DNA of 40,814 nt from a virus (IMGVR_UViG_3300005917_000010:1-40814); one strand, 5' to 3'; shown: positions 9,623 through 40,814, counted from the first letter of the stretch. Notes: generated by a model not told the origin, from the letters alone. A program made the numbers and translations.

Positions 9623-10345
9623 TCAAGGACCCGTAGACTCGTCGGGGGTGTCGTGCTTCTTGCGGTATGCGAGTAACTCTTCGTTATATGTGTCGATTAG
9701 CGCGGAAAAAGCCATTGCCATCTGTACAGGCACCTGACCGTTTCCGAGAGCCTTGAGTCTGTTCGCGCGGTCTGGAACCTTCCCAGTCAGTCGTGGTATC
9801 ACACCAATATCTGCCGGATCGGTTGCCCACCATGTGCCGTCCATCACGGAACGTTCCCACTTCTCAACATCCGGGGTGGCGTTCAGATCAGTCCAGCCGA
9901 CCGGCCAACCCATCAACCAGGCAACCCAATCGGGGTTCAACGAGCCCCAACGATGCCCATCAAGACCTTCAGGTATAACCTTTTCGATCGGTGGGCTCCG
10001 CCCATTATACCCGAGGCAATCACGGATCAAATCGCCGCGACCGCCATGTTCACCTTCGCTTGCACAAGGCGTCCGCCACATCCGACGGCCAACAACCGTT
10101 GTGCGGTGCACCATGTTGAGAAACCATGATCCATAACCTTTCCCGCTTGTGGTGTGCACCTGCTTCGGCAGCACTGAACACACCCCATTCTGCATCATAC
10201 CCCATTTCGGCCAAGTCGCCGAGAATGCATCCGAAGTATCCGTGAGACCGGGCAAGCAAGCCTGTAACGTTTTCCAACCACGCGAATCGTGGTCGTATTC
10301 TGCAAATGGTGTCCCTTGTCGCTGGCCACATATTTCTTTCGTCAT
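9623..10345 (-). pseudogene. Cytosine-C5 DNA methyltransferase, C-terminal fragment
   Basis: The frame contains the target-recognition region and the C-terminal signature of C5 methyltransferases: MWRTPCASEGEHGG (the usual W.TP.ASD block), WVAWLMGWPVGWTDL, and RLKALGNGQVPVQMAMAF (motifs IX-X). Meaningful homology starts near 10130. The N-terminal ~70 codons of this open frame are the out-of-frame shadow of the central fragment. Catalytic motifs I, IV, VI and VIII are on separate frames upstream, so this part alone cannot be active. Confidence 0.8.
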
Positions 10346-10382
10346 TCTCTGTCTCTTGTTTCCCTGCTACGCTAAACGGCTG
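10050..10382 (-). pseudogene. Cytosine-C5 DNA methyltransferase, central fragment (motifs IV, VI, VIII)
   Basis: Reading from 10382 gives QPFSVAGKQ (the continuation of motif IV, whose PC is split by the break), then RPRFAWLENVTGLL (motif VI, ENV) and HHKRERLWIMV (motif VIII). The frame then stops at 10050. It is separated from the N-terminal fragment by 7 extra bases at 10384-10390 (between two copies of cac) and from the C-terminal fragment by a further one-base shift between about 10130 and 10080. A start codon at 10331 exists but would omit motif IV. Confidence 0.75.
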
Positions 10383-10389
10383 GCACAGT

Positions 10390-10857
10390 TCACGGGAATC
10401 CAGCAGTGATCATATCTGCATCACCACTAGATTCCTCAGCGTCCTTCCGTTCGATTGGGGTGTTTGTTTTGTGCCACTCATGGTGGCACTTCTGGCAAAG
10501 CCATTGGACTTCAAGTGGATTATTGTAGTCGGCATGATGGGCCTGTATTGCTGATCGTCCGTCAGCAAACGATCCAGAATCTCCGCATGTCTCGCATTTG
10601 TCAGGTTTAGTAAGTAGCCCCTTCTCTAGTGCTTTTTCACAAAGATTCTGTGCCCTATCTGATGACTTCAGTCCACCGCGATAGAAGTGGTTGTCTGCAC
10701 CGTATCGAACATTTGGCCTGAATGAGACACTCCGTCTCTTGAGGATGTAATACATTGACTGGCGCGTGACATTGTGGATGTCCGCAACGTCACCAACCGA
10801 CAGCCCTGCCTCGTATTGACGGACCGCTTCATCGTAGTCCTTTCTATGTGCTGGCAT
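10390..10857 (-). CDS. HNH homing-type endonuclease nested in the methyltransferase
   Basis: About 155 residues from an ATG with its own strong CGGAGG site, as is usual for homing endonucleases living inside other phage genes. The N-terminus has a helix-turn-helix (GLSVGDVADIHNVTRQSMYYILKRR). The C-terminus has the HNH core with a zinc-binding pair: CETCGDSG, then IQAHHADYNNPLEVQWLC, then CHHEWH. It would cut DNA at the uninterrupted methyltransferase allele or a nearby site. The 9-mer GCAGATATG occurs at both edges of the insertion. Its stop comes from the 7-bp insertion in the methyltransferase. Confidence 0.8.
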   Translation of the reverse strand: MPAHRKDYDEAVRQYEAGLSVGDVADIHNVTRQSMYYILKRRSVSFRPNVRYGADNHFYRGGLKSSDRAQNLCEKALEKGLLTKPDKCETCGDSGSFADGRSAIQAHHADYNNPLEVQWLCQKCHHEWHKTNTPIERKDAEESSGDADMITAGFP

Positions 10858-11106
10858 ATCTGCCTCCGTATTAGAGTTACTCCTAAAATACGAAAGGCTG
10901 ACAAACTCTGCAATGTCTTCGTCTGTAAGTTCTCGAATGTCCCCATAAATCGGCGCATCGTGTAGTAATCCATCACTGATGCGCTTCTTAAGGAGGTGTT
11001 GGCAGTAACCATCGGATTCCACATATGCAATAGTGTCCCACCCAAGGAGGTGTTGACTTGCGAGTTCGCCACCACCGGCACCAGAGAATAGAGATACGAC
11101 GTTCAT
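10390..11106 (-). pseudogene. Cytosine-C5 methyltransferase N-terminal fragment read through an HNH insertion
   Basis: The frame opens with the classic motif I, VVSLFSGAGGGELASQ, followed by YVESDGYC and YGDIRELTDEDI, then runs without a stop into an HNH endonuclease, and ends with GDADMITAGFP just before the Cys of the catalytic PC motif. Removing 10384-10390 restores GFPCQPFS. The segment from about residue 68 to 222 is foreign to the methyltransferase. The start at 11106 overlaps the upstream stop by ATGA. Confidence 0.8.
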
Positions 11107-21985: not shown

Positions 21986-22855
21986 ATGCCAAAGGCGAAG
22001 GCACCGAAACCCGAACAGACGGCACCGGAGAACACCGGTCCAGAGATCGCGATCATCGAATACGGCGAGAAACGTGCATCCGAGTTCAAGGGCAACCCGA
22101 AGAACTGGCGAAGGCACCCGGAGGCGCAGAAGGACGCTGTCCGTGGATCGCTCCGCGAGCTGGGGTGGATCTCGCCTGTGATCGTGAATATCCGGACCGG
22201 AAACCTGATCGACGGTCATGAGAGGCTGGCACAAGCTATGGAGGCTGGGCAAGACTCGATGATCCCGTATATCACCGTGGACCTTCCGATCCACAAGGAG
22301 GCACTTGCGCTGGGTGTGTTCGACGTAATTACCGGGATGGCCGAAGGGGACAAGGATATACTGAACTCGCTCATGGAGGATATCAGGACAGATGACCCGG
22401 ACCTACAGGCATTGCTCGCTCAGGTGGCAGAGGATGAAGGATTGTTTGGAGACCCGGAGGAGCTCGACCCGGAAGAGCAGGAAGCCAACTACAGCCGGAA
22501 GATCAAGGCACCGATCTACGAAATCAACGGAGACGAACCTCCTGTATCTGACCTCTACGACGGGACCAAGGCCGCTACGCTTCGTAAGGAGATTGAGGCT
22601 GTAGAACTACCAGATGAGGTCCGAACGTTCCTGAATGCCGCCGCTGACCGCCACACAGTATTCAATTTCCGGAACATCGCGGAGTACTACGCACACGCGG
22701 ATGCGCCAACGCAATCCCTTATGGAGAAGTCAGCACTCATCATTATTGACTTTGAGAAGGCCATCGAGGGCGGGTTCGTAAGACTCAGTGAGAAGATGCT
22801 GGAATACGCCGGGATGAGTGAGCGGGCGGCTGCGGAGGAAAAGGATGAGGTCTGA
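21986..22855 (+). CDS. ParB/Srx-like N-terminal domain protein
   Basis: 289 residues from an ATG after GGAGG. Residues ~20-95 match a ParB/Srx N-terminal fold: NPKNWRRHPEAQKDAVRGSL, ELGWISPVIVNIRTGNLIDGHERL, the GxxR/H-type motif that in the family binds nucleotide and sometimes cleaves DNA. The C-terminal half is acidic and helical. No helix-turn-helix or plasmid partition partner is seen, so a phage-specific role such as DNA processing or modification is more likely than segregation. First gene of the late strand; its end overlaps the first glycosyltransferase by 11 nt. Confidence 0.8.
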   Translation: MPKAKAPKPEQTAPENTGPEIAIIEYGEKRASEFKGNPKNWRRHPEAQKDAVRGSLRELGWISPVIVNIRTGNLIDGHERLAQAMEAGQDSMIPYITVDLPIHKEALALGVFDVITGMAEGDKDILNSLMEDIRTDDPDLQALLAQVAEDEGLFGDPEELDPEEQEANYSRKIKAPIYEINGDEPPVSDLYDGTKAATLRKEIEAVELPDEVRTFLNAAADRHTVFNFRNIAEYYAHADAPTQSLMEKSALIIIDFEKAIEGGFVRLSEKMLEYAGMSERAAAEEKDEV

Positions 22856-23729
22856 CACCTGCGTGTTGATCGTCACGCACGGGAGGCCGGATAATCAGTT
22901 GACGACGAAGTCTCTTCGCAGGCAAGGATATACGGGTCGTATCATCTACGCGCTCGATGACGAAGACCCAACCCTGCCTGAATACATAGAGCAGTTCGGG
23001 GATGACGTGGTAGTCTTTTCAAAGGCTGAGGCGATAGCCCGAACCGACGACGGGCACAACTGGGCGGATCGCGCCTCCGTCGTCTACGCTCGGAACATGC
23101 TGTGGGACATAGCCCGAGAGGCCGGGTATCAGTATTTCATCGCGCTCGATGACGACTATTTCTGGTGGTACTACCGGTTCCTCAGTAACGGAACGTATGG
23201 GAATGTGAACATCGCGTCGCTCGACCTGCAATTCACAGCCATGGTCGAATACCTCTCGGAAACTCCGTTCTACTGTATCTCAATGTCTCAAGGTGGAGAC
23301 TACATCGGAGGCGGTGGGGAACGAAACAAAAAAAGTAACAAAAGTTCGATCACAGGGATACGGAAGGCAATGCAGGTCTACGTATGTGACGTGGATAGAC
23401 CTTACCAGTTCCGGGGCAAGTTCAATGAGGACGTAACCGCGTATTCGCATGAGTCGAGGATTGGGGTCTCATTCCTGACGCTTATGATGTCACAGGTTCT
23501 CCAGAAGCCAACGCAGGTGATTGAAGGGGGAACCTCCGAGCAATACAAGAAGTGGGGAACCTACGTGAAAACGTTCTTCACCGTGATGTATGCACCGTCG
23601 TGTTGTAAGGTGTCGATGATCCGAGACTTCAAGGACGGGCACGAAGGCGATTCACGTATCCACCACATAATCCTCGGAGACCACGCGCACCCGAATATCA
23701 TATCTGACAAATGGCGAAAGGAATCATGA
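22845..23729 (+). CDS. GT-A glycosyltransferase, GREB1/TAGT-like, copy 1
   Basis: 294 residues; ATG after GGAGGAAAAGG. Opening CVLIVTHGRPDNQLT, then IIYALDDEDPTLPEY, VVYARN, and YFIALDDDYFWWYYRF with the metal-binding DDD at 102-104. This is the pattern of the TET/JBP-associated (GREB1-like) glycosyltransferases that add sugars to hydroxymethylated pyrimidines in some phages. A close paralogue follows directly. The nucleotide-sugar donor and acceptor are unknown, and no TET/JBP oxygenase or hydroxymethyl-nucleotide synthase is visible in the window, so the acceptor might come from the host or another route. Confidence 0.75.
   Translation: MRSDTCVLIVTHGRPDNQLTTKSLRRQGYTGRIIYALDDEDPTLPEYIEQFGDDVVVFSKAEAIARTDDGHNWADRASVVYARNMLWDIAREAGYQYFIALDDDYFWWYYRFLSNGTYGNVNIASLDLQFTAMVEYLSETPFYCISMSQGGDYIGGGGERNKKSNKSSITGIRKAMQVYVCDVDRPYQFRGKFNEDVTAYSHESRIGVSFLTLMMSQVLQKPTQVIEGGTSEQYKKWGTYVKTFFTVMYAPSCCKVSMIRDFKDGHEGDSRIHHIILGDHAHPNIISDKWRKES
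22896..23025 (+). repeat. 130-bp block nearly identical to 23780-23909
   Basis: The two glycosyltransferase genes share this block with only two mismatches, without gaps, while sequence on either side is well diverged at the DNA level. It encodes LTTKSLRRQGYTGRIIY and DDEDPTLPEYIEQFGDDVV. The sharp edges suggest recent gene conversion. Confidence 0.85.
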
Positions 23730-24571
23730 TGAGGCTGGATACCTGCGTACTAATCCCGACGCATAAGCGACCCCACGCCCAGTTGACGACGAAGTCTCTT
23801 CGCAGGCAAGGATATACGGGTCGTATCATCTACGTGGTCGATGACGAAGACCCAACCCTGCCTGAATACATAGAGCAGTTCGGGGATGACGTGGTAGTCT
23901 TTTCAAAGGAGGATGCCGCCACACAGACGGATGATGGTCATAACTGGGGTGATCGTACCTCCGCTGTCTATGCCCGGAACTTCTCTTTCCGGGCGGTGAA
24001 AGATGCAGGTTATCGCTATTTCATCATGCTGGATGACGACTACTCAATGTGGTACTACCGGTTTCGGGAGGACCGGACGTATGGAGTCACGAGGATTAAG
24101 TCGCTTGATCTACTCTTCGCGTCGCTGGTCGAATACCTCTCGGAGGCTCCACTCAGATGTATATCAATATCACACTCTGGAGACCACGCCGGGGGCGGTG
24201 CGGGCAAGACTGAGATTGGGGCGAACCGGAAGGCACTCAGTGTGTACGTGTGCGATGTAGAACGTCCGTATCAGTTCCGGGGGATGATGGAGGATTATAT
24301 TACCCACATACACGAGCAGTCGCGTGGGAACACTATGCTCTCGGTGACGATGGCTCAGTATGTCTGTAAGGAAGCACTGCACCAGAACGAGGGCGGCCTG
24401 CATGACGTATACGAATCACGTGGCATGTATACCTCGTGCTTCTTCACCGTGATGTATGCACCGTCATGCTGTCGGGTAGACGCGCAGAGTCCAGACAAGA
24501 TGTATCACGCGATCAACGGGCCTGCTGCATATCCAAGGATCATCCACGAACAGCACAGAAAGGCACGATGA
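23726..24571 (+). CDS. GT-A glycosyltransferase, GREB1/TAGT-like, copy 2
   Basis: 281 residues, ATGA overlap with copy 1. Same motif order: CVLIPTHKRPHAQ, YVVDDEDPTLPEY, YARN, YFIMLDDDYSMWYYRF with DDD at 103-105, and the shared tail FFTVMYAPSCC. Outside the converted block the two proteins differ at many positions, in particular in the region after the DDD motif that usually shapes the acceptor site, so they may act on different sugars or in sequence. Confidence 0.75.
   Translation: MMRLDTCVLIPTHKRPHAQLTTKSLRRQGYTGRIIYVVDDEDPTLPEYIEQFGDDVVVFSKEDAATQTDDGHNWGDRTSAVYARNFSFRAVKDAGYRYFIMLDDDYSMWYYRFREDRTYGVTRIKSLDLLFASLVEYLSEAPLRCISISHSGDHAGGGAGKTEIGANRKALSVYVCDVERPYQFRGMMEDYITHIHEQSRGNTMLSVTMAQYVCKEALHQNEGGLHDVYESRGMYTSCFFTVMYAPSCCRVDAQSPDKMYHAINGPAAYPRIIHEQHRKAR
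23780..23909 (+). repeat. 130-bp block nearly identical to 22896-23025
   Basis: Second copy of the converted block, in the same place in the protein. The two mismatches (at the A-L versus V-V codons) change residues just before the DDEDP motif. Confidence 0.85.
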
Positions 24572-25299
24572 CAGCGAAGAAGGCACCGAAGATTGGACTA
24601 AACAGGACAAGAGTTTCGATAAAAACAGGCAGCCCTCCTGCGACGACCAGATTCTTACCACATGCCGATGCGCGTGCTGCTGTATTCGGATTAGAGTCAG
24701 GGTCGCGGATTATTGGGCTGACAAAGGGGCAGTTCTCGATGCTCGACTTGGTCGTGGCGATACTGAGGATTACTGGTCCAGCGGATGTGGTTATCTCAAC
24801 ATGGACAACTGGGATGCGAGACGTAGAAACCGTAAGGTATATGAGAGAAATCGGCAAGATCGAGGATTTCCGTTTCTTGACCGATCGCTCATTGCTGGCC
24901 CGTCATCCTGATTATATCGAAGGTATGATAGATGCGTTCGGGAGTGAGCGTATATGGTGCACGAGGACACATGCAAAGTTCGCGATGATCCACAGCGATG
25001 AATGGTCGATAGTCTGCCGTGGGTCTATGAACCTCAATCGGAATACGCGGTTTGAGCAGTTTGACATTGACACCGACCCTGCTATATATGCGTTTTATTC
25101 GGAGCATGTGAACGACGTATGTTCATCCCAGCAGAGTGGAGTCCTGCGGTCTACGAGTGATGTGGATGCATCATTCGGGATGTCGATGGATATAGGCGAG
25201 GATGGAGATACAGATGTCGAGGATGATGGCGATAGCATAGGTAGCATCCTCGCACGGTCAGAAAACGAACTCGAAAAATTAATGAGTGATGAAGTATGA
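24568..25299 (+). CDS. Phospholipase-D-like (single HKD) protein
   Basis: 243 residues, ATGA-coupled to glycosyltransferase 2. THAKFAMIHSDEW followed by GSMNLNRN is a single H-x-K-x4-D-like motif with the G.S.N.. block of the PLD superfamily; single-motif members act as dimers and are often nucleases. A hydrophobic strand (DVVISTW) precedes it, and the last ~45 residues are very acidic. Position between sugar transferases and terminase suggests DNA processing; nuclease function is inference. Confidence 0.7.
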   Translation: MTAKKAPKIGLNRTRVSIKTGSPPATTRFLPHADARAAVFGLESGSRIIGLTKGQFSMLDLVVAILRITGPADVVISTWTTGMRDVETVRYMREIGKIEDFRFLTDRSLLARHPDYIEGMIDAFGSERIWCTRTHAKFAMIHSDEWSIVCRGSMNLNRNTRFEQFDIDTDPAIYAFYSEHVNDVCSSQQSGVLRSTSDVDASFGMSMDIGEDGDTDVEDDGDSIGSILARSENELEKLMSDEV

Positions 25300-25796
25300 C
25301 ATTGAAGGAACCTGAAAAGGACAAGACGAAGCGCGGAGGTCGTCCACGTATCGAGTTTTCGCCAGGTCTAGAAAAGGAGATACGAAGTCTTGCCATGATC
25401 CAATGCTCGGTGGAGGAAATATCCATCGTGACTGGACAGTCACAGACTACGCTCCGTAGGCATTTTGGCGTAGCTATAAAAGAAGCTCGTGAAGGTGGCA
25501 ATAACTCACTCCGGCGCGCTCAGTTCAAGGCGGCACTCAAAGGGAACTCCGCAATGCTGATCTGGTTGGGGAAACAGTGGCTCGGCCAGAAGGATAAGCA
25601 AGACCTCGAACTGAGCGGACCCGACGGTGGACCAATCCAGACGCAGACCCGCGAACTCACGGATGAAATGCTGGTGAAACATGAGGAGTCACTCAAGAGG
25701 ATCGCCAGTCGATACGGCGGAACAGAACGCGGCATCAGTAGCGAAGTCGATGAGACAGGGGTGGATCAGGAGCAACCCGACCCCGAAGCAGCTTGA
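25296..25796 (+). CDS. Terminase small subunit
   Basis: 166 residues, ATGA-coupled. The N-terminal half has a helix-turn-helix (SVEEISIVTGQSQTTLRRHFG) and the middle has the usual small-terminase helices (AALKGNSAMLIWLGKQWLGQKD). It recognises the packaging site and recruits the large subunit. The 3' end overlaps the large-subunit ORF by up to 116 nt. Confidence 0.75.
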   Translation: MTLKEPEKDKTKRGGRPRIEFSPGLEKEIRSLAMIQCSVEEISIVTGQSQTTLRRHFGVAIKEAREGGNNSLRRAQFKAALKGNSAMLIWLGKQWLGQKDKQDLELSGPDGGPIQTQTRELTDEMLVKHEESLKRIASRYGGTERGISSEVDETGVDQEQPDPEAA

Positions 25797-27024
25797 CTTT
25801 CTGCTCGAACCGGAACGTGAATCCCTGTACGGTGGTGCTGCTGGTGGCGGGAAGTCTGAAGCACTCCTGATGATCGCCTTGCAGTATATCGACGTACCCG
25901 GACACGCCGCGATGATCTTCCGACGCACATACCGCGACCTTGCCTTACCTGGTGCCATGATGGACAGAGCGCACGAGTGGCTGGGACCGACATCCGCACA
26001 CTGGAGTGACACCGATAAGCGGTGGACATTCCCATCCGGTGCGACACTCTCGTTCGGATACCTGGACGGACCACGCGACCACTTCCGCTATCAGGGTGCC
26101 GAACTCCAGACAATCTGCTTCGACGAACTCACCCAGCTGCGGGAAGAGCAGTATACATATATGTTCTCACGTCTCCGTAGGCTACAAGACAGTGACGTAC
26201 CGCTCAGAGTCCGTTCCTCCTCTAATCCCGGCGGCGTTGGCCATGACTGGGTAGCACGTCGGTTCGGTCTCGGTGAATACGGCACAAATGCACCCATGAG
26301 CACCGTCAGACCATTCCACGCTGCCAGCCTAGATGACAACCCCTACCTGGACCGCGACAGCTACCGCGAGACCCTCATGACCCTCGACCCGGTAACACGC
26401 GAACAACTCCTGAACGGTGACTGGTCGATCCGTCCCGCCGGGACCATGTTCAAGTTGGGGTGGTTTGTATTCACGACGGAACGACCGAAGCGCGCGAAGT
26501 GGGTGCGGTTCTGGGATCGTGCCGCGACTGAAGCGAAGGCTGGCAAAGACCCCGACTACACATGTGGTGCGTTGGTTGCTGAAGCGGAAGGGATATACTA
26601 CGTTTCTGACATACAGCGATTCCGTGAGTCACCGCGTGAGAATGAGATACGGATTCGTGCCACCGCAGAAATGGACGGCGTGGAGGTTCCGATCAGGATG
26701 GAACACGAAGGCGGTGCTGGTGGCAAGGACATGATCGACACATACGCCAGAAGGGTTCTCATTGGATATGATTTTCGTGGTGACAGGCCGTCCGGTTCCA
26801 AGGTCGAACGTGCGGCGATTGTCGCATCCGCTGCCGAACAGGGCAACGTCCACATTGTCAGAGGGCACTGGAATACAGCATACATCGGTGAGGCCACGGC
26901 GTTCCCGTCAGAGGGTGTGCACGACGATCAGGTCGATGCTGTCAGTGGCGCGGTCCGGTTCCTCTCGTCACAGAACGAGGGACGCGCAGGTGGTCTCTCA
27001 TACAGCGCAATTCCGGGGAGATAG
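25681..27024 (+). CDS. Terminase large subunit (packaging ATPase-nuclease)
   Basis: 447 residues if started at 25681. Walker A GGAAGGGKS at 51-59, Walker B LQTICFDE at 142-149, motif III-like RSSSNPGG at ~178-185, and nuclease acidic residues in VRFWDRAAT (Asp279) and HDDQVDA near 420. It cuts and translocates DNA into the prohead. The start is uncertain: 25681 and 25750 (MRQGWIRSNPTPKQ) both lack a clear ribosome site; the second fits the typical N-terminus better. Confidence 0.9.
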   Translation: MRSHSRGSPVDTAEQNAASVAKSMRQGWIRSNPTPKQLDFLLEPERESLYGGAAGGGKSEALLMIALQYIDVPGHAAMIFRRTYRDLALPGAMMDRAHEWLGPTSAHWSDTDKRWTFPSGATLSFGYLDGPRDHFRYQGAELQTICFDELTQLREEQYTYMFSRLRRLQDSDVPLRVRSSSNPGGVGHDWVARRFGLGEYGTNAPMSTVRPFHAASLDDNPYLDRDSYRETLMTLDPVTREQLLNGDWSIRPAGTMFKLGWFVFTTERPKRAKWVRFWDRAATEAKAGKDPDYTCGALVAEAEGIYYVSDIQRFRESPRENEIRIRATAEMDGVEVPIRMEHEGGAGGKDMIDTYARRVLIGYDFRGDRPSGSKVERAAIVASAAEQGNVHIVRGHWNTAYIGEATAFPSEGVHDDQVDAVSGAVRFLSSQNEGRAGGLSYSAIPGR

Positions 27025-39877: not shown

Positions 39878-40701
39878 TGAAAACGCTCGATTCGGCAATT
39901 ATCACAGCGAAGAATGCGCTGTCCGTTGACGCTCCGTGGGTGATCCTCATTGAACTCACGCTGAAGGATACGACCGTCATCAGGATGGCACGGGAACGGG
40001 ACGACGTGAGGTATGATGGAGAGGACTACACGGCACTGCCGATGGCGTTCGGGACGGTCAACCAGAGCAGTGACGGGAGACTCCCATCGCTGACCATGAA
40101 GGTCGGGAACCCTTCCCGCGTGCTAGAACCCTATCTGCATACTACCGACGGTCTGTCAGGCTGTGCGGTCACCATGCTCCTGATATATGACCCGGCCAGT
40201 CCAGTACTCGCGGATCAGTGGCGGTTCATCATCAACAAGATTGCGTCCGATGAGGATTGGCTGGATGTTGAATTGGGATCACTGAACCTGTACCAGAAAA
40301 GGATTCCACGCGACCGGTATATTCCCGGATTCTGCCGTCACGTATTCCGGGGTGCAGTCTGTCAGTTTGCGGATGGAGATGTCGGTCCGCTGGATACGAT
40401 CAGCTTTACCGCGACAGATACCATCACGATACCTGGTGACCAGACCGGCGAGTTCGCGGAGGACCAGCGGATTGACGTATCTGGGAGTGCTGATAATGAC
40501 GGGGAATACACCATCGTCTCGGCTGTCTACTCCGCACCGAATACGACCGTGACCGTTGTGGAAGCAATCGCGACCGAAGCCGCCGGGGAAGATGTGACAA
40601 TCACAGTGATCTGTGACCACACGCTCCTGACCTGCCGGGCGAATGGCAACAGTGCGAGGTTCGGAGGTTCTCCCGGAATGGACGGTGGGGTATATGCCTG
40701 A
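39877..40701 (+). CDS. gpL-like minor tail protein with four cysteines (hub)
   Basis: 274 residues. N-terminal ~140 resemble tail-tip hub protein (WVILIELTLKDTTVIRMA; MKVGNPSRVLEPYLH). C-terminal part has FCRHVFRGAVC (Cys153, Cys162) and CDHTLLTC (Cys246, Cys253), the four-cysteine pattern that in lambda gpL binds a 4Fe-4S cluster. Between the cysteine pairs lies an ~80-residue beta insertion (TISFTATDTITIPGDQTGEF...). It ends in ARFGGSPGM. Overlaps NlpC by 8 nt. The order M-L-K-J is that of lambda. Confidence 0.8.
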   Translation: MKTLDSAIITAKNALSVDAPWVILIELTLKDTTVIRMARERDDVRYDGEDYTALPMAFGTVNQSSDGRLPSLTMKVGNPSRVLEPYLHTTDGLSGCAVTMLLIYDPASPVLADQWRFIINKIASDEDWLDVELGSLNLYQKRIPRDRYIPGFCRHVFRGAVCQFADGDVGPLDTISFTATDTITIPGDQTGEFAEDQRIDVSGSADNDGEYTIVSAVYSAPNTTVTVVEAIATEAAGEDVTITVICDHTLLTCRANGNSARFGGSPGMDGGVYA

Positions 40702-40814
40702 ACTGTCGCACCTTCTCCGCGTGCCGTATTCGTACCTTGGCCGCGACCTCAATACCGGGCTGGACTGTTACGGCCTCCTTATGGAGGTCTTTCGTTTGTA
40801 CGGAATCGTGATCC
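40379..40814. repeat. Imperfect terminal redundancy, right copy (matches 1-436)
   Basis: Right partner of the left-end copy. Position x here corresponds to x minus 40378 in the left copy with no insertion or deletion, and the unique genome length implied is 40378 bp. Confidence 0.9.
40694..40814 (+). CDS. NlpC/P60 tail peptidase, 5' fragment (variant allele of 316-696)
   Basis: The first 40 codons of the gene that is complete at 316-696, cut by the window end. Includes the catalytic Cys25 (GLDCYGL). Differences from the left copy include Tyr-Ser versus Tyr-Leu near residue 13 and Leu versus Ile at 19; others are silent. Confidence 0.85.
   Translation, partial: MPELSHLLRVPYSYLGRDLNTGLDCYGLLMEVFRLYGIVI

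Follow-up and report, generated by a model that had tools for sequence, protein, structure and literature searches.

The gene block studied here has a conserved core of two genes, one for a ParB-like protein with a distinct C-terminal domain (CTD) and one for a TAGT-family glycosyltransferase (GT) of GT-A fold, which co-occur at every locus where contig extent permits. We tentatively propose, at a little less than an even chance, that the pair is a two-component TAGT-type glycosyltransferase in which the GT works with a CTD/ParB partner, and that its most likely target is phage DNA at about the time of packaging. Within this proposal we infer the physical complex, DNA as the acceptor, the timing and a protective role.

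The gene block and its conserved core

The window, i.e. the whole stretch of DNA analysed, is a virus contig of 40,814 bases from IMG/VR. Its last 436 bases are 89% identical to its first 436 (positions 40379-40814 and 1-436), and a second contig (G031) spans the junction of the two ends. The genome is thus essentially complete. No nucleotide-level relatives of the window were found among named phages.

On the plus strand, positions 21986-25299 hold four overlapping genes, followed by the small and large terminase subunits. The genes encode a ParB/Srx-like protein of 289 aa (21986..22855), a first glycosyltransferase, GT1, of 294 aa (22845..23729), its tandem paralogue GT2 (23726..24571, with 23711, 23726 or 23729 as the start), and a NucT-like nuclease of the PLD family (24568..25299). 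The terminase small subunit (25296..25796, +) overlaps the stop of the PLD gene and clusters with proteins located immediately 3' of the pair in 20 loci. The large subunit (25681..27024, +, start uncertain) was taken from the ORF list, and its relatives also lie 3' of the pair. The overlaps between the block genes measure 1-19 nt, and most starts are preceded by Shine-Dalgarno-like purine runs. The first-pass annotation had described these four genes as coupled by short overlaps directly before the terminase, which is confirmed. Its grouping of all four into one cassette did not hold up, as only the ParB/CTD and GT genes are conserved together, GT2 having arisen by tandem duplication and the PLD gene being unlinked elsewhere.

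The PLD-family protein (phrog_16945 endonuclease, 2.8e-46) was considered as a core member and rejected. Its homologue is absent from all other pair loci, and its relatives are annotated as 'NucT-like nuclease' in Gordonia and Arthrobacter phages. It is a lineage-specific neighbour and, judging from these comparisons, probably lies outside the module.

To count the pairing, IMG/VR was scanned with GT and CTD as separate queries, built from closer-subset alignments in place of one overly diverse first alignment. Both genes were present in 160 of 162 loci, the remaining two being cut off by contig ends. In a divergent branch related to Porphyromonas phages, both were found in 61 of 70 loci, and in the other nine the GT sits at a contig edge. 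GT was also present at all CTD loci in the bacterial genomes of GTDB (39/39), carried by Proteobacteria, Bacteroidota, Firmicutes, Verrucomicrobiota, Kiritimatiellota, Cloacimonadota, a Gastranaerophilales MAG, Patescibacteria and others. All 28 CTD-bearing records among named phages were likewise GT records; all of these counts describe best-scoring samples and need not hold for very distant relatives. The GT start lies at most 25 nt from the stop of the CTD gene in 130 of 132 unique pairs, and the two genes overlap in 119 of them. No natural CTD-GT fusion was seen among the same 132 pairs, and no GT was found in plasmids.

The hosts of the viral carriers span many bacterial phyla and one haloarchaeon. 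In E. coli phages, Lactobacillus delbrueckii phage c5, L. gasseri phage jlb1, Nocardia phage NTR1 and Porphyromonas phages, the ParB-like gene overlaps the TAGT gene, usually just 5' of the terminase. The pair is also upstream of the terminase in the haloarchaeal virus HHTV-2, with several small genes in between. Vibrio jumbo phages keep the CTD and lack the ParB part, and one of them, pv27, has a stand-alone CTD beside the GT. This ParB-less version is placed among DNA replication genes. A scan with a single Vibrio CTD protein returned two spurious loci only. In a mirror-tree comparison, the correlation with GT was nominally higher for the CTD (rho 0.33) than for the ParB N-terminal domain (rho 0.16), with a bootstrap interval that includes zero.

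Terminases of mutually unrelated classes (Terminase_6, Terminase_3, HK97-type TerL and one GpA) made up most of the genes in the two positions 3' of the GT at 66 non-redundant loci. The genes upstream of the pair in the non-redundant loci had no common theme. Surface-glycan genes are, as a rule, not neighbours of the pair. Iyer et al. 2013 (NAR), who reportedly defined TAGT and may already mention ParB neighbours, were outside the literature searched, in which no account of the ParB/CTD and GT pair was found.

The ParB/CTD protein and the glycosyltransferases

The ParB/Srx-like protein matches phrog_620 (9e-30) and the ParB part of phrog_498, 'DNA methyltransferase' (3e-19), and its AlphaFold model resembles ParB-N, Noc and sulfiredoxin, which places its N-terminal domain (22049..22480, +) in the ParB/Srx fold. 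In an alignment of the ParB proteins, the C-terminal 115 or so residues stood out as a second domain, the CTD (22481..22852, +), which is the invariant partner of the GT. It is much better conserved than the ParB domain, with 30 of 124 columns at or above 90%, versus 4 of 165. Its consensus core is RHTVFNFxxIAEYYAHA...SALVIIDFDKAIENGF, and it contains invariant Tyr, His and Asp residues. The CTD had no confident match in Pfam, NCBIfam or PDB, and the helices predicted by AlphaFold resemble nothing convincingly.

The N-terminal fold is shared with the CTPase clamps ParB, Noc and KorB, and with phage ParB-methyltransferase fusions. CTPase ParBs carry a GERR box, in place of which the ParB/CTD family has GHxR. 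The clamps further differ from the pair in that its CTD is without a PDB fold match, the Vibrio phages do without the ParB part, and no ParA was seen in the pair neighbourhoods.

Both GTs belong to the TAGT family, as first annotated. They match Pfam TAGT PF20691 with 95.2 bits (GT1, 6.7e-27) and 83.1 bits (GT2, 3.4e-23), against a curated cut-off of 27.5, and also match phrog_842. The AlphaFold model of GT1 has a GT-A fold (pLDDT 89), and the PDB matches listed for it are GT-A enzymes, including GalNAc-T2, COLGALT1, LARGE1 and glucosyl-3-phosphoglycerate synthase, at fold level only (TM about 0.45). D103 and D104 are invariant, the DxD-type motif is present with its DDD intact, and GT1 retains 62 of 69 conserved columns, including DDDY.

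GT2 is sister to GT1 in the tree (support 0.999) and, on these sequence comparisons, is a diverged tandem copy of it. It retains DDDY and deviates at 23 of the 69 conserved columns, most of these deviations falling in the C-terminal half. Identity between the two copies is 71% in the N half and 45% in the C half, a pattern that would fit either decay or a change of acceptor while the donor stays the same. The codon differences at positions 1, 2 and 3 (87, 75 and 135) suggest ongoing constraint. Tandem GTs are also found at three other loci (L029, L087 and L114) and in several Firmicutes.

The host surface had been considered as one possible destination of the sugar. Phages often carry serotype-conversion glycosyltransferases, and sugar genes lie near the pair in a few relatives (L038, L096 and L114). 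However, no membrane-segment-like stretch was found in the GT, which appears soluble, no flippase or lipid-carrier genes are listed beside it, and the carriers face completely different host surfaces, that of an archaeon included. The expectation that homologues might pair consistently with surface-glycan genes was not borne out either: the partners are the CTD protein and, usually, a terminase on the 3' side. A host-surface glycosyltransferase is therefore very improbable.

Some loci are more elaborate. In two relatives, a gene resembling RGP/UDP-arabinopyranose mutase lies immediately 3' of the GT (L038 10867-11664 and L096 1776-2558), which hints at arabinofuranose as the donor sugar in some relatives. 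Locus L114 (9440-14997) contains in order a ParB-CTD gene, a GT, a radical-SAM/SPASM protein, a second GT, an NAD-dependent epimerase, and then another ParB-like gene. At L129 (13535-15253) a class I SAM methyltransferase domain is fused to the GT, and the CTD gene is about 3 kb away. A Lachnospiraceae prophage-like locus (L272 3227-6213) has one CTD gene with three GT copies nearby. The elaborated loci, with their tandem GTs, mutase-like genes, radical-SAM/SPASM protein with epimerase, and methyltransferase fusion, support a real glycan product.

Acceptor pathways and the possible targets of the sugar

The T6 TAGT has been reported to put glucose onto glucosylated hmC in DNA (PMC13216743, PMC13390438), and a GT-A fold has been reported for the T6/T2 enzymes (PMC13216743). 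The T6/T2 TAGT (beta-glucosyl-HMC-alpha-glucosyltransferase, ggt) is, like the GTs studied here, phage-encoded and a member of PF20691 (T6 1e-8), yet the T6 protein could not be aligned with the branch of the pair by BLAST or hhalign. It is encoded beside a dCMP hydroxymethylase and an alpha-GT, without a CTD partner, whereas nearly all pair carriers are without such genes. As to the comparison of both GTs with T4 AGT and BGT that had been suggested as a check, the T4 enzymes have a GT-B fold, unlike the predicted GT-A fold here, and were not among the PDB matches listed for GT1. TET/JBP-associated phage glycosyltransferases share the Pfam family name and the fold, but the pair carriers and hosts tested lack TET/JBP.

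TET/JBP was found neither in the window, an essentially complete genome in which no oxygenase had been visible at first sight, nor in 56 records of relatives, nor in 39 whole host genomes. The control search picked up the TET-like gene of mycobacteriophage Nigel at E 4e-8, which is under the Pfam cut-off, so that very divergent oxygenases could escape detection. Absence weighs less for the IMG/VR records, many of which are fragments, than for the complete phages and host genomes. The thymidylate-synthase family, to which dCMP hydroxymethylase belongs, was detected in the T6 control and, among the relatives, in one 191-kb Vibrio phage only. The homologues of the pair had been suggested as a place to look for either enzyme; no TET and this single thymidylate-synthase-family gene were the outcome.

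In the window itself, PHROG scans of the early region recognised a DnaC-like helicase loader, a replication initiator and an Erf recombinase. The same scans recognised no thymidylate-synthase-family or dCMP hydroxymethylase gene among the early genes, and no polymerase or nucleotide-pool enzyme in this small region, which suggests that any modification would have to be post-replicative.

The C5 cytosine methyltransferase of the window (9623..11106, -), which lies outside the module, is broken, as the first-pass annotation had recognised. An HNH-endonuclease-like segment, which carries a resolvase-like HTH, interrupts the gene in frame, and a frameshift lies at the catalytic motif. As a general maker of the acceptor such a methyltransferase was rejected, because only 7 of 57 records have one, and one of these is a near-identical contig of the window's own phage. 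A route from 5mC through 5hmC to glycosyl-hmC, with the oxygenase missing or broken, would draw on this broken gene and on the Pfam name 'TET-associated'. Against it stand the absence of TET from all relatives' records and host genomes searched with the Nigel control detected, and the rarity of the methyltransferase. We consider this route, in which the first-pass annotation had framed the block, hardly credible. Since the relatives with an intact pair have no TET, nearly all lack the thymidylate-synthase family and few have a C5 methyltransferase, the broken gene of the window is incidental. This TAGT branch thus lacks the pathways implied by its name. The sugar acceptor had been called unexplained in the window, with DNA modification as one possibility, and this view is supported, as acceptor pathways were not detected in the relatives either.

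According to the proposal of DNA as the target, the GT-A catalytic subunit would work only together with the CTD protein, translated just 5' of it via overlapping reading frames. The ParB/Srx-type domain, fused to the CTD in most phages, would recruit the complex to phage DNA. The complex would be made alongside the terminase and would add a sugar to replicated phage DNA while it is being packaged or shortly beforehand. This sugar would serve as an accessory defence against restriction or nucleases, and the duplicated GT2 of the window may attach a second one.

Several lines of evidence point to DNA. Both GTs are in the same family as the T6 TAGT, a reported DNA glucosylation enzyme, and their ParB-type partner shares homology with the ParB portion of DNA methyltransferases from phages (phrog_498). 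Furthermore, CTD and GT pair almost universally, the terminase classes 3' of the pair are unrelated, and in phage c5 the pair follows cos. The hosts are diverse and include a haloarchaeon, there is no membrane-like stretch, surface-glycan neighbours are not the rule, and the ParB-less Vibrio version sits between DNA replication genes. Arguing against DNA are the lack of any enzyme found to make a sugar-accepting hydroxyl base, apart from the one Vibrio thymidylate-synthase-family gene, the failure to align the T6 TAGT, and the protein glycosyltransferases (GalNAc-T2, COLGALT1, LARGE1) among the top fold matches, albeit at low TM.

These last matches would suit a pair that glycosylates a virion or packaging protein, such as terminase, portal, capsid or tail, with ParB/CTD recruiting the substrate. 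The predicted GT-A fold is closest to protein glycosyltransferases, and the pair heads the late/packaging operon. Glycosyltransferase genes also occur in mycobacteriophage head operons and have been proposed to modify the capsid (PMC4351075). However, the unrelated terminase types downstream leave no common protein substrate apparent, the partner is ParB-type, and the Vibrio version lies away from structural genes. We regard a protein target as the main rival, though a rather unlikely one.

The CTD/ParB protein could also be the acceptor itself, and once glycosylated, act as a DNA-binding protein on host or phage DNA. That CTD and GT occur almost strictly one to one, and that the CTD has invariant Tyr, His and Asp residues, is consistent with such self-modification, but a subunit or chaperone role explains the pairing equally well, and we find the idea quite doubtful.

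In RB69-type arabinosylation, DNA receives two sugars one after the other (PMC13390438), and the mutase-like genes adjoining the GT in two pair relatives recall this system. RB69 differs in making 5-hydroxy-dCMP via a thymidylate-synthase homologue, which nearly all pair genomes lack. A more speculative extension of the DNA proposal, which we think unlikely, is that CTD/ParB-TAGT would be self-sufficient in DNA glycosylation, either placing the sugar straight onto an ordinary base or using the CTD/ParB protein to create the acceptor, and would have spread in this form among viruses whose hosts include an archaeon and many bacterial phyla.

Natural losses and E. coli carriers

In Cequinquevirus, some 90 bases separate the pair from the cos end of the genome. 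Four closely related L. delbrueckii phages differ in its state. Phage c5 has an intact pair directly after cos, in LL-Ku (L288) a single deletion spans both genes and fuses them, in Ld17 (L294) the pair is shortened and ParB is absent, and in phiLdb (L293) the GT is frameshifted. Repeated loss in the viable phages LL-Ku, Ld17 and phiLdb fits an accessory role.

The pair, counted where at least 80% of it was present, occurs in 905 of 5426 complete E. coli genomes (about 17%). There it resides in Rac-family prophages, as in locus L003 (7217-8933), and is known from annotation as ynaK and a GREB1-related protein. The K-12 copy, ynaK/ydaY, is a truncated remnant. The closely related intact and broken copies (c5 versus LL-Ku, Ld17 and phiLdb), together with the 905 E. 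coli genomes, make the question of function testable.

A 2026 survey found TAGT without an alpha- or beta-GT in 288 of 753 phage genomes, and termed its function undefined (PMC13216743). Pairing with the CTD defines a likely large class of such orphan TAGTs, for which no acceptor pathway was found, and which are marked by an obligate partner and a usual place before the terminase.
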